Of a stretch of 49,306 nt of DNA, positions 1 to 48,750 are shown in pieces; within the stretch, counting starts at the first letter, position 1; every line of letters begins with the position of its first letter. A model generated the notes under the pieces. It worked only from the letters and a program-made list of their open reading frames with translations. It was not told the origin of the DNA and ran no database searches. Position numbers and translations under genes: made by a program. Origin of the DNA: an uncultured Desulfatiglans sp. (GTDB taxonomy: Bacteria; Desulfobacterota; DSM-4660; Desulfatiglandales; Desulfatiglandaceae); assembly GCA_900498135.1 (NCBI GenBank), contig LR026961.1:2312637-2361942 (forward strand). Direction: 5' to 3'.

Positions 1-79
1 GATTTCCTTGATATTGGCCAAAAATCCTCATTTCCGGATTGGAAACTTAGTCCTACCGCGAAATCATTTCCGGATGGAC
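1..79 (-). repeat. Palindromic repeat, copy 1 (cut by window edge)
   Basis: Right-hand part of the dispersed palindromic element described at 48575-48750, here in reverse orientation and truncated by the window start. It begins inside the arm containing TTGATATTGGCCAAAAATCC and ends with the terminal motif CATTTCCGGATGG. The same sequence recurs 182 bp downstream almost without change, so copies 1 to 3 form a tandem array. Open frames seen here are repeat-encoded and show no sign of being genes. Confidence 0.85.
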
Positions 80-87
80 ACTGTTTA

Positions 88-261
88 TTTTCCATCCCGA
101 AATCCTCTTTTTAGCCAATCTCGGCGTCAATCTGCACGTTTGCTTGTGCGGCGACCTGCAGGTCGCCTCCGCGTAAACGCTGGATTTCCTTGATATTGGC
201 CAAAAATCCTCATTTCCGGATTGGAAACTTAGTCCTACCGCGAAATCATTTCCGGATGGAC
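88..261 (-). repeat. Palindromic repeat, copy 2 (full length)
   Basis: Complete reverse-orientation copy. It starts with a variant of the terminal motif (TTTCCATCCCGAAATCC), passes through the central perfect palindrome GGCGACCTGCAGGTCGCC, and ends CATTTCCGGATGG. The tandem period to copy 3 is 182 bp. The two halves are imperfect reverse complements of each other, so the whole unit could fold as one long hairpin. Family relationship to the other copies is read directly from the sequence; function is unknown. Confidence 0.85.
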
Positions 262-269
262 ACTGTTTA

Positions 270-497
270 TTTTCCATCCCGAAATCCTCTTTTTAGCCGA
301 TCTCGGCGTCAATCTGCACGTTTGCTTGTGCGGCGACCTGCAGGTCATTTCCGTGCAACCGCTTGATTTCTTTGATATCGTCAAAATATGGACCCGCCGT
401 GAAGCGGTGGGACTGAGCACGCACAGCGTGTGAAGAAAAATCCTCATTTCCGGATTGGAAACCGGGTTCTACCGGTAAATCATTTCCAGATGAAACC
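270..497 (-). repeat. Palindromic repeat, copy 3 (interrupted)
   Basis: Third tandem reverse-orientation copy. The left half matches copies 1 and 2 up to the arm TTTGATATCGTCAAAA, is then interrupted by about 50 bp (388-437), and resumes with AAAATCCTCATTTCCGG. Its right end (GGAAACCGGGTTCTACC, then CATTTCCAGATGAAACC) has diverged more than in copies 1 and 2. The intervening block carries its own small hairpins and looks like a nested insertion. Confidence 0.75.
388..437. repeat. Small double-hairpin block inside repeat copy 3
   Basis: About 50 bp present only in this full copy. It contains two adjacent inverted repeats, CCGC-N6-GCGG (within CCCGCCGTGAAGCGGTGGG) and CACGC-ACA-GCGTG. The partial repeat at 17265-17340 begins with a sequence like the right edge of this block (GTGTGGAGAAAAAATCC), so the interrupted form may have given rise to that copy. 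Nested mobile palindrome is an inference. Confidence 0.45.
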
Positions 498-779: not shown

Positions 780-955
780 ATTTGTATCCGGAGTTGGATT
801 CACTGAAAACCTCGACGGTGACTGCGCGTTTGCGGGAAGGTGCCTATAGGCCGTCGGGCAAGCAATAATGGATGTCGAGATTGGCCAAGAGACGTTTTCC
901 GGAGGAGAATTCATCGGGGATAACCATTTCCGGCGCAGCCGGATGAATGAAACCG
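780..955 (+). repeat. Decayed palindromic repeat, copy 4
   Basis: Forward-orientation degenerate copy. Recognisable blocks in the right order are GTATCCGGAGTTGGATTC, GCGTTTGCGGGAAGG, a mutated centre, GGGCAAGCAA, then GTCGAGATTGGCCAAGAG and TTTCCGGAGGAGAATTC, and a last trace of the terminal motif near 922-953. It sits between the sigma-54 site and the first gene. A 47-codon frame (868-1011) inside it overlaps the next start as ATGA but is mostly repeat sequence. Confidence 0.6.
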
Positions 956-2367: not shown

Positions 2368-2510
2368 GTTTCCAATCCGGAAATGAGGATTTTTGGCTAA
2401 TATCAAGGAAATCAATCGTTTGCGTGGAGGCGACCTGGTGGTCACCGCACAAGCAAACGTGCAGATTGACGCCGAGATTGGCCAAAAAGGCCATTTCCGG
2501 ATGGAAACGA
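2368..2510 (+). repeat. Palindromic repeat, copy 5
   Basis: Full 143-bp forward copy from GTTTCCAATCCGGAAATG to CATTTCCGGATGGAAACG. The centre is changed to GGCGACCTGGTGGTCACC, so the perfect central palindrome is damaged while both arms are kept. It ends 58 bp before the Mrp-like gene. The rest of the 2071-2568 gap shows no credible gene; an open frame running through 2104-2400 ends in repeat sequence and is not supported. Confidence 0.9.
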
Positions 2511-17264: not shown

Positions 17265-17340
17265 AAAGGTGTGGAGAAAAAATCCTCGTTTCCGGATTGG
17301 AAACCGGGTCTTTGCGGGGAATTGTTCCCGGACGAACCCT
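17265..17340 (-). repeat. Partial palindromic repeat, copy 6
   Basis: Matches the right end of the interrupted copy 3: GTGTGGAGAAAAAATCC, then TTTCCGGATTGGAAACCGGG and a decayed terminal motif TGTTCCCGGACGAACC. It runs up to the ribosome site of the rubrerythrin gene, so it probably lies in that gene's 5' leader. Confidence 0.6.
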
Positions 17341-21445: not shown

Positions 21446-21474
21446 CTCCATCCGGAAGAGGGCTTTTTGGCCCC
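21446..21474 (-). repeat. Fragment of the palindromic repeat
   Basis: CTCCATCCGGAAGAGGG followed by CTTTTTGGCC matches the terminal motif and first arm of the palindromic element (TTTCCATCCGGAAATGG, then TCTTTTTGGCC). It begins directly after the carB stop and is the only trace in the 91-bp carB-purF gap. Confidence 0.5.
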
Positions 21475-21535
21475 ACCCGGGCGCCAATGACAGGGTCGGT
21501 GGCAGGCTGGTTCGAGGGAGGAACACTAGGGGAGG

Positions 21536-26047: not shown

Positions 26048-26256
26048 AAATAGCCTCCCCCCACTGATTCAACTGTTCGCTTTCGCCGGACAAGGGCTCT
26101 GTTGCCCTCTCTCGGGGTCAATCTACAACGCTTGCTTTGTGCAGCCGTCCCGGTAGGTCCCGGCTCGGTCTCATGGTTGCGCTCATGCCGGTCCGAGCCA
26201 TGCGCTCGGGTCCGGACGGCCCGGGGTGCCTTGACCGGTGCCGCTGGACATTTCTG

Positions 26257-29663: not shown

Positions 29664-29719
29664 CCTGTCCACAGGCTCTGGTCTTGGGGGTGTTGGAGGG
29701 AAATCAAGCGGTTGCACCG

Positions 29720-29835
29720 AAACAGGGTTCTACGGGGAGATCATTTATGTATGGGCGCGACCTATGAATCGCTGCATAACAAAACGTGCAGATCGACGCC
29801 GAGACCGGCAGGGAAGCCTCTTTCGGATGGAGGCT
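29720..29835 (+). repeat. Decayed palindromic repeat, copy 7
   Basis: Two recognisable arms: GAAACAGGGTTCTACGGGG with ATCATTTATG near 29720-29750, and AACGTGCAGATCGACGCC followed by GAGACCGGC and TTTCGGATGGAGGC at 29782-29835. The order and spacing suggest an old copy with a large deletion in the centre. The rest of the 445-bp convergent gap holds only the terminator hairpin. Confidence 0.5.
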
Positions 29836-45612: not shown

Positions 45613-45809
45613 GCATAACCGGCTTTTAGGGATTGGATCACCATGATGCGACGGAAGCGAGGCTGCACTTTTGTTTCCTGTTTTTCCATTGGAGGGGCAA
45701 GGATTCCTTCTATTGCGGCTGTGCGTGAATGGGGCCATTTTGCTTTGTGCAGAGGATGGGCAGTTTCCTTCCGGGGATTGAGGCGCAGGGTGCCAGGAGG
45801 TCGTTTTAT

Positions 45810-46778
45810 ATGATTAATTTCAATCATTTCAGGATATTTTACTATGCTGCCAAGGCGGAAAGTTTCACCGAAGCGGCGGAGAGGCTTTTCATCACCCAGC
45901 CGGCCGTGACAGCACAGATACGCGCCTTCGAAGAAGCCTGCAACCTCAAATTGTTCAAAAAAAAAGGGCGCCACGTCCATCTTACAGACGAAGGGAAAGC
46001 CCTTTTTCACTATGCCCGCAAGGTATTCGAATTCGAGCATGAAATTGAGGTTGCGATCGACAAGATGCACCAGCTCAAGCGGGGGGTCCTGCGGATAGGG
46101 ACCACCAAGACCTATGCGCGTTACTTCATGCCTTACCTTCTCAGCGGTTTTTTGAAGGATTACCCGGATATAAAGGTCTTTTTGAACGAGGGCAGTTCGG
46201 CCGAAATGACCCGTGGACTGCTCGATCTGACCATCGAGATCGCGGTAATCGCCAAAGCCGAGGAGAACCCTGCGGTTGTCTTCAGGCCCTTCAGCCAGGA
46301 GGAATTGCTGCCTATTCTTCCACCCGGTCACAGGCTGGCGGGGCGGGATTCGGTGCATTTTACGGAGCTGGCCGGGGACCCGATCATCTTGAAGGACACC
46401 GGATCAGGGACGCGGAGGCGCGTGGCGGATCTCTTCGCGAGATACGGGCGTGTTCCGAATATCCTGATGGAGACGAACAATGTCGAATTCATCAAAGAGT
46501 TGGTTGGGAGGGGAGAGGGCTTCTCTTTCCTCGTCAAGGCAGCCGTGGTCCAGGACGTAAAAGAAAAACGGCTGGTCACGCCTCAGATAAGGGGCGAGCA
46601 TCTTTATCTCGATGTGAGCATTGCCTATCTGAAGGATCAGTCCCTTTCGAGGCCAGCCAAGGCCTTTCTGCGTATGCTCGAGAACTTGGCCGGCGACAAC
46701 CCGTCACCGGCCGAAGGCATCGGGGCCCTCACAGCGAGGATCCTGGCCCGAGGCGAGGAGGCTGGCCGGATCGAATGA
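45810..46778 (+). CDS. LysR-family transcriptional regulator
   Basis: 322 residues. N-terminal winged helix-turn-helix (MINFNHFRIFYYAAKAESFT, ITQPAVTAQIRAFEEACNLKLF) and a C-terminal periplasmic-binding-fold effector domain from about residue 90 (VLRIGTTKTYARYFMPYLL, LTIEIAVIAKAEE). Start 45810 has AGGAGG upstream; the frame is open further but without conservation. Its divergent place beside the aromatic operon makes it the likely local regulator, perhaps responding to an aromatic acid (inference). Confidence 0.92.
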   Translation: MINFNHFRIFYYAAKAESFTEAAERLFITQPAVTAQIRAFEEACNLKLFKKKGRHVHLTDEGKALFHYARKVFEFEHEIEVAIDKMHQLKRGVLRIGTTKTYARYFMPYLLSGFLKDYPDIKVFLNEGSSAEMTRGLLDLTIEIAVIAKAEENPAVVFRPFSQEELLPILPPGHRLAGRDSVHFTELAGDPIILKDTGSGTRRRVADLFARYGRVPNILMETNNVEFIKELVGRGEGFSFLVKAAVVQDVKEKRLVTPQIRGEHLYLDVSIAYLKDQSLSRPAKAFLRMLENLAGDNPSPAEGIGALTARILARGEEAGRIE

Positions 46779-46820
46779 CACGGTTTTCCGAACAGCCGCC
46801 ATCCGCCCTTGTATTCTAGT

Positions 46821-46994
46821 CTCCATCCGGAAATGTTTTTGCGGTAGAACTCGGTTTCCAATCCGGAAATGAGGATTTTTGGCCAATATCAAGGAAATCA
46901 AGCGTTTGCGCGGAGGCGACCTGCAGGTCGCCGCACAAGCAAACGTGCAGATTGACGCCGAGATTGGCCAAAAAGACCATTTCCGGATGGAAAC
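46821..46994 (+). repeat. Palindromic repeat, copy 8 (full length)
   Basis: Forward copy from CTCCATCCGGAAATG through GCGGTAGAACTCGGTTTCC to the 141-bp palindrome ending CATTTCCGGATGGAAAC. Almost identical to copy 9, 1.75 kb away, including the intact centre GGCGACCTGCAGGTCGCC. It lies between the end of the lysR gene and the end of the second Tm-1-like gene, which converge. Confidence 0.92.
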
Positions 46995-47020
46995 TATTCT
47001 AATCTTCGAAAAAACCTCTA

Positions 47021-48235
47021 CTACTCCCCGCTGTTCTGAATCATGGCATGCATCGCCTGGGCGCACTGCTCGGCAAAGGTGCTCGAGTTGATGTGCTGGT
47101 GAGATTCCTGGATGCTGACCACAGATGAGAGATTCTTACGGACCGTATCCAGGAAAAAACGGTTCATCGCCGGGTCATACAGAGGGGCTCCTTCCTTGTC
47201 GGCCTCAGACCACCCGAGCGTTGGGATGAGCAGCTTGGCACCCTGGCCGAAACGATTCAGTTTTTCGGCCAGCTGGCGCGCCAGTGTCGCAGCCTCCTCC
47301 CGGCTCAATCGAACGGCGGACCGGAAATCATAGAAGAAGATGCTACGCTCCTCGTATCGCTCCGGGATGTGGTTGCGATCGAAGATCAGCACTGCGCAGT
47401 CGAGGCCCCCGGGGATCACCAGCCGGGGTGGGTTGGGTCTTCCGGGGAAGGGCACGAGCCTTCCCGGCCCGATCCCGCCACAGTACCCGTCCAGGAGGGC
47501 GTCGGCCAGTTCGTGGGTGGCGAAATCGAGGACGCCCGCAAACAGCCCTTCGGATGCCAGTTCTTCCATCGCCATCCCACCGGTTCCATTGGCGTGAAAG
47601 GGAATGACCTCGTAGCCGAGGGCCTCCAGATGCCTGCGTACGTGCTCCGCTCCCTCTGTAATGAAGCCGAACATGGTCAGGCCCACCCGCTTTTTCGTGC
47701 TGCCGGTTCGATGCTTTTCGTTGCTGTCCACCATGCCGCAGACGGCTCCGGCGGCGCGCTCCAGCAGCCCGGCGGAAATGCTGTTGATGCCCAGCAGATC
47801 CACGACGCTGTGCATCATGGTGATGTCTTTGGTTCCCACCGTGCGGGACATGTCCCTGGAGGCTACCGTGGATATCATGACCTTGGGGATTCCCATGGGG
47901 AGGATGCGCATGATTTCGGTGCAGAGATAGGTGCCGGTTCCTCCGCCCGCTGAGACGACCCCGGAGAGCCTGTCTTGCCGGTAGAGTTCCTGGACCAACG
48001 AGCGCCCTTTTTCGATGACGGCCTCGATGGCTTCGTCCCGGCCCAGACCTCCGCGGGCCGCGATCGCCTCGGTGTAAAGATCGTAGTCGACGGGAAAAGG
48101 CGCCGGGGCCTTGGTTCCCGCGTGAAGCGTCAACGCCGGAAATCCTCGTTCTTCAATCACGTCTCTGAGGTAAGCATGTTCCTCTCCTTTGGAATCGAAA
48201 GTGCCTAGTACAACGACCGCCTTGTTTCTCTCCAT
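47021..48235 (-). CDS. Tm-1-like / UPF0261 family protein (second copy)
   Basis: 404 residues, clearly homologous to the operon copy at 40557-41768 but well diverged. VVVLGTFDSKGEEHAYLRDV opening, GVVSAGGGTGTYLCTEIMRILPMGIPKVM loop, and the C-terminal LLIPTLGWSEADKEGAPLYDP segment. Internal differences (for example RHLEALGYEVIPFHANGTGG) suggest another substrate. GGAG precedes the start. It is alone, transcribed towards the lysR gene. Role not known. Confidence 0.88.
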   Translation of the reverse strand: MERNKAVVVLGTFDSKGEEHAYLRDVIEERGFPALTLHAGTKAPAPFPVDYDLYTEAIAARGGLGRDEAIEAVIEKGRSLVQELYRQDRLSGVVSAGGGTGTYLCTEIMRILPMGIPKVMISTVASRDMSRTVGTKDITMMHSVVDLLGINSISAGLLERAAGAVCGMVDSNEKHRTGSTKKRVGLTMFGFITEGAEHVRRHLEALGYEVIPFHANGTGGMAMEELASEGLFAGVLDFATHELADALLDGYCGGIGPGRLVPFPGRPNPPRLVIPGGLDCAVLIFDRNHIPERYEERSIFFYDFRSAVRLSREEAATLARQLAEKLNRFGQGAKLLIPTLGWSEADKEGAPLYDPAMNRFFLDTVRKNLSSVVSIQESHQHINSSTFAEQCAQAMHAMIQNSGE

Positions 48236-48574: not shown

Positions 48575-48750
48575 GTTTCCATCCGGAAATGATTTCGCGG
48601 TAGAACTCAGTTTCCAATCCGGAAATGAGGATTTTTGGCCAATATCAAGGAAATCAAGCGTTTGCGCGGAGGCGACCTGCAGGTCGCCGCACAAGCAAAC
48701 GTGCAGATTGACGCCGAGATTGGCCAAAAAGACCATTTCCGGATGGAAAC
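48575..48750 (+). repeat. Palindromic repeat, copy 9 (reference copy)
   Basis: Best-preserved unit. A 35-bp lead (GTTTCCATCCGGAAATG, then GCGGTAGAACTCA) precedes a 141-bp imperfect palindrome (48610-48750) centred on the perfect 18-bp dyad GGCGACCTGCAGGTCGCC (48671-48688). Both halves carry, at matching distance from the centre, GTTTCCA(A)TCCGGAAATG, TTTTTGGCCAAT and CGTTTGC. The terminal motif therefore occurs three times per unit. No transposase or coding sequence is inside. Confidence 0.92.

Follow-up and report, generated by a model that had tools for sequence, protein, structure and literature searches.

Judging from sequence comparisons, the near-palindromic repeats dispersed through the 49,306-nucleotide stretch of DNA analysed here (the window) are very probably MITEs mobilised in trans by the transposase of a resident 1.7-kb ISNCY insertion sequence. 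Their identity as MITEs is supported by their ends, their target duplications, the empty sites, their length classes, their abundance and the presence of a resident insertion sequence with matching ends and duplication length. A very abundant and previously unassigned repeat family is now tied to the ISNCY transposase family. In titles and abstracts, a literature search with most subscription journals outside its scope revealed no evident ISNCY-linked MITE family, and a review of MITEs makes no mention of ISNCY (PMC10969869).

A modular family of near-palindromic repeats

The window corresponds to positions 2312637-2361942 of a 4.80 Mb genome assembled as one contig (G000). The family of near-symmetrical palindromes of about 141 bp described in the initial annotation is real, as the exact 176-bp unit found at 48575-48750 belongs to a set of at least 41 full-length or nearly full-length copies, 95-100% identical, accompanied by partial and diverged ones elsewhere in G000. 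The 16-bp end motif TTTCCATCCGGAAATG occurs at 352 + 353 = 705 sites of this genome when up to two mismatches are allowed, against 4 + 1 = 5 sites for the reversed pattern used as a control. Since an element carries two to three motifs, this count suggests an estimate of roughly 200-300 elements in G000.

The 176-bp unit is made of a 35-bp left extension followed by a 141-bp near-palindromic core, the apex of which is GGCGACCTGCAGGTCGCC. Alignment of the copies with their flanks places a 17-bp outer terminal inverted repeat, GTTTCCATCCGGAAATG, at both element ends (the right edge reading CATTTCCGGATGGAAAC), and a slightly different inner end motif, GTTTCCAATCCGGAAATG, at the join of extension and core, where it opens the core; the three-fold terminal motif noted earlier is thus made of the outer repeat at both ends and this inner copy. 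The 141-bp form is also found alone, without its extension (window 2368-2508), and the family as a whole is modular: the core may bear the 35-bp extension on its left, and it contains none, one or two copies of a 52-bp double-hairpin module. This module, CCGGGACCCGCCGCGAAGCGGTGGGACTGAGCACGCGAAGCGTGTGAAGAAA, consists of two small hairpins with GAAG-type loops (seen in L079-L098; for example L096:14178-14404) and is inserted at one core position, cores with one or two modules measuring about 193 and 245 bp. The subfamily census covered the window and a biased sample of 20 stretches of 20 kb picked for motifs. We rejected the module as an independent repeat: of its 44 matches in the sampled stretches, 39 adjoin an identifiable core and 5 resemble truncated or decayed elements.

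All units measure 141-280 bp, below the 500 bp typical of MITEs, and have no coding capacity, as had been proposed from the window. RNA folding of one 141-bp copy gives -67 kcal/mol. By impression, the body of the elements is GC-mixed, whereas a typical MITE body is A+T-rich, and a search of the core by eye revealed no exact match to the IHF site WATCARNNNNTTR. The copies had been described as all intergenic; this is roughly true, 25 of 30 copies falling outside long ORFs in a crude ORF scan.

Copies within the window were sought by blastn with three reference elements (Table 1), the best match in the reversed-window control having an E value of 0.28. All copies listed initially were recovered, some of them as decayed pieces, with weak support for the one placed at 780-955 outside 826-903. 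The copy at 48575-48750 is without a clear target duplication (flanks ttaagtt / gagctca). The three units at window 1-497 (G000 2312542-2313131) form an array with spacers TGTTTA plus TTTTCCATCC, and similar partial tandem units are found at G000 191104-191374, 3448964-3449236 and 3491425-3491694.

Table 1. Copies of the repeat and their parts in the window (E values from blastn).
Feature	Position	Strand	Remarks
Reported full-length 176-bp MITE	48575..48750	+	outer inverted repeats 48575-48591 and 48734-48750
35-bp left extension of reported copy	48575..48609	+	opens with outer terminal repeat
141-bp near-palindromic core of reported copy	48610..48750	+	part common to most relatives
Full-length 176-bp MITE	46819..46994	+	E 2e-84; perfect 7-bp target duplication; site empty in G001
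Left target-site duplication TATTCTA	46812..46818	.	beside copy 46819-46994
Right target-site duplication TATTCTA	46995..47001	.	beside copy 46819-46994
141-bp form without left extension	2368..2508	+	match 2367-2508, E 2e-61; imperfect duplication gggata / gagata
176-bp copy cut by window edge	1..81	-	E 8e-34; G000 2312542-2312717; duplication TGTTTA
Second array unit, 176-bp type	89..263	-	E 1e-76
Third array unit, one 52-bp module (core about 193 bp + extension)	271..495	-	E 2e-74
52-bp double-hairpin module in third array unit	387..438	-	boundaries approximate
Heavily decayed copy	826..903	+	E 4e-5
Decayed partial copy	17271..17332	-	E 8e-10
Decayed partial copy, right end	21447..21488	-	E 7e-5
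Decayed partial copy absent from the initial annotation	26086..26145	-	E 2e-4, weak
Decayed copy	29719..29831	+	match 29769-29831, E 3e-7

Target duplications and empty sites

Perfect flanking duplications of 6-7 bp, such as TAGATA, TAGTTA, TATTCTA and GAGGCTA, border 16 of the 25 copies whose ends were placed by rule, and 2 more have duplications with one mismatch; the chance of a perfect 6-mer duplication is 1/4096 per copy. We queried the sister species G001 with the joined flanks of 13 copies. Base-level alignments revealed uninterrupted single empty targets in G001 for the copy at window 46819-46994 (L018, TATTCTA) as well as for L013 (AACCTAG), L025 (AGTTTA) and L030 (GAATTC); they show that the L005 site is empty too, with small changes. 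The sites of L020 and L015 are probably empty as well, though diverged, and for L008 and L019 an element lies at or beside the matching flanks in G001. Insertion therefore postdates the divergence of the two species or went on through it.

Some element ends are found next to a recurrent flanking sequence. A left flank of more than 100 bp ending in ...TTGACAAGAGCCCGTTTCATAACA adjoins the ISNCY element at G000 1500303 (L142/L112); on contig 53 of G001 (L182), the same flank adjoins a MITE, the other flank of which matches a different G000 site, L008; and at G000 4334252 (L010) at least the last 35 bp of this flank adjoin a MITE. As the same flank occurs at differing elements and sites, these ends lie where segments that were rearranged or duplicated meet, and the repeats mark rearrangement junctions in these genomes.

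The probable partner insertion sequence

The transposase survey of G000 covered PF01609 and PF01797 only, so that another transposase with identical ends could be missed. A DDE_Tnp_1 search combined with a motif scan of the loci obtained revealed three transposase genes enclosed by inverted copies of the motif (G000 1500303-, 2157540- and 2892551-). These are the three copies of an insertion sequence of ~1.69 kb with ends GTTTCCATCCGGAAA../..TATTTCCGGATGGAAAC (in longer form, GTTTCCATCCGGAAAACG and GTTTCCATCCGGAAATAGGG), and a 6-bp duplication, TAAATA, is present at copy L115. The 455-aa product, which contains the Pfam domains DDE_Tnp_1 and DUF772, is identified as NCBIfam NF033593 'ISNCY family transposase' with 438.9 bits against a curated cut-off of 325 (E 1.7e-131). 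One copy (L138, G000 2157540-2158904) has one in-frame TGA; the ORFs of the other two are intact.

MITE and insertion sequence have little in common beyond the terminal repeat, plus ~24/28 bases at the right end. Two independent ISNCY members, an element of G016 (protein 66% identical; ends GTGTGCATCC../..GGATGGACAC; duplication TAATTA) and ISRle10 of Rhizobium (end GTGCCCGTCCATAAACG; duplication TAGTCTA), confirm the kind of ends and the duplication length. In a scan of genome contigs, the only two named relatives of the transposase come from Desulfobacterales and Desulfobacteraceae MAGs, and none was found in viral contigs. Inverted ends, 6-7 bp duplications, empty sites and a transposase gene bordered by matching ends all bear out the MITE reading offered in the initial annotation; the TnpA-REP partner suggested there gives way to an ISNCY-type DDE transposase.

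Relatives in other genera

The proposed search of the genome and its relatives yields further copies: 27 of 61 genomes have a match, and diverged 141-bp cores extend to other genera and to a second family within the order. Several diverged relatives keep the left extension, starting GTGCCCATCC..., and perfect duplications are found at the outer edges in other genera (TAGCTC, TAACTC, TAGTCTA, TAGATTA and TCATTA). The 176-bp architecture thus predates the genus. No repeat copies were found in phage and plasmid records.

The ends of the repeats and of the transposon shift together between genera. Exact ends of the GTTTCC and GTGTCC types number 137 and 26 in G000, 61 and 14 in G001, and 3 and 230 in G007, which belongs to another genus. 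In G000 the transposase gene is bracketed by GTTTCC ends; in G007 the motif GTGTCCATCCGGAAATA, of the GTGTCC type, lies downstream of a transposase fragment that is 87% identical and sits at a contig edge. The parallel shift to GTGTCC of the repeats and of the end flanking the transposase gene in G007 is the most telling of these comparisons and lends indirect support to mobilisation in trans. No intact ISNCY transposase was found in G001, a 110-contig draft that carries full-length MITE copies; a missing intact insertion sequence in G001 or G007 is weak evidence, both genomes being drafts. In G007, which is of the same family as G000, a ~142-bp version with GTGTCCATCCGGAAATG ends has expanded independently, reaching 230 exact end motifs in 3.4 Mb.

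Alternative explanations and the hairpin

Spread by a RAYT (TnpA-REP, Y1 single-strand) transposase, as for REP/BIME-type repeats, is hardly credible here. Like REPs, the present repeats are dispersed, palindromic and mostly intergenic, they exist in hundreds of copies, and G000 has 6 PF01797 matches. However, the motif flanks none of these 6 Y1 loci (one has a single match with 3 mismatches), and target duplications of 6-7 bp together with two inverted ends are unlike Y1 transposition, which is not known to make target duplications. As the initial annotation had remarked, the units are also much longer than REPs, which measure 20-40 bp (PMC3733652). Another reading holds that the repeats are what decay or internal deletion has left of an extinct insertion sequence from a different family, the ends of which would merely be like those of the ISNCY element, and the limited similarity between MITE and resident insertion sequence is in its favour. 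This origin nevertheless seems very unlikely in view of the ends shifted alike in G007 on the repeats and on the flank of the transposase gene, a duplication length identical to that of the ISNCY element and the recent near-identical copies in G000.

The hairpin itself raises the alternative that the repeats are structured RNA or terminator elements kept by the host, for instance as mRNA stabilisers or sRNAs, with mobility only in the past. In an alignment of 19 diverged cores, 97.1% of the cells of a 49-pair consensus hairpin are paired and 18 of the 49 pairs are changed on both sides, so that the compensatory changes anticipated for the stem are present. None of 500 shuffles, a control that takes sequences regardless of kinship, reaches the observed values, and pairing falls to 38-48% when the partner strand is shifted by 1-3 bases. 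Some copies also lie between convergent genes, such as the one at 46819-46994, between ORFs 45729-46778 (+) and 47021-48235 (-). Such sites are not preferred, however (4 of 30 copies in the crude scan, with no orientation preference); presence and absence vary between sister species, most other copies are visibly decaying, and no Rfam family matches above its gathering score, which leaves the earlier idea of a structured RNA mobilised in trans with no direct support. In addition, polymerase template switching at quasi-palindromes raises the complementarity of their arms and could also yield paired changes without selection (PMC7202029). We consider retention by the host unlikely.

Mobilisation of the repeats as MITEs by the ISNCY element is thus the reading we prefer. 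They are short relatives of an insertion sequence, cut-out and non-coding, and the ISNCY transposase would recognise their two inverted ends GTTTCCATCCGGAAATG, excise the element or copy it, and place it, with duplication of 6-7 bp, in short A+T-rich targets of TAnnTA type. The mover would be the resident transposase rather than an extinct one, and the movement may be either cut-and-paste or replicative. The hairpin core, which is unusually well preserved for this known kind of element, is maintained through changes that pair across its two arms, which may reflect either a role that the hairpin plays as DNA or RNA or templated repair of the quasi-palindrome, and the paired changes do not in themselves prove selection. 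Several unpaired internal-loop positions are invariant in all 19 cores, and the persistence of these loops, which repair should remove, argues against a pure repair origin. The combination of paired changes across genera with invariant loop positions being unexpected under simple templated repair, we tentatively raise the possibility that the long hairpin is selected within the mobile element, where the folded DNA or transcript might aid end capture by the ISNCY transposase or limit insertion harm, with the 52-bp module (0, 1 or 2 copies) as a swappable cassette for the same role. The natural series formed by these elements (0-2 modules, with or without the extension, 19 diverged stems) offers material for asking whether MITE hairpins are functional or kept by repair.

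Comparison with known systems

The partner element shares its transposase family, an end of the form GTnnCCrTCC... and a 6-7 bp duplication with the NF033593 insertion sequences (ISRle10 and, by annotation, ISRm17), whereas the MITEs are without the transposase gene and have mainly the ends in common with them. MITEs are typically shorter than 500 bp, with terminal repeats of ~4-30 bp and direct repeats beside the younger copies, and are mobilised in trans by insertion sequences; prokaryotic examples are Chunjie of Geobacter uraniireducens (178-235 bp), QMITE2 of Coxiella, the Correia element and ERIC (PMC10969869). The present repeats agree with this description in size, in terminal inverted repeats of that length range, in target duplications and empty sites and in the existence of an autonomous relative with the same ends. 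As is the case for Chunjie, QMITE2, Correia and ERIC, they are below 500 bp, non-coding, hairpin-forming and mostly intergenic, and they have terminal inverted repeats, direct repeats at younger copies, size variants and decayed copies. They differ from these four in that their ends match an ISNCY insertion sequence, in their modular core (0-2 52-bp modules, with a second end carried by a 35-bp extension) and in the paired changes of the stem, measured here across genera.
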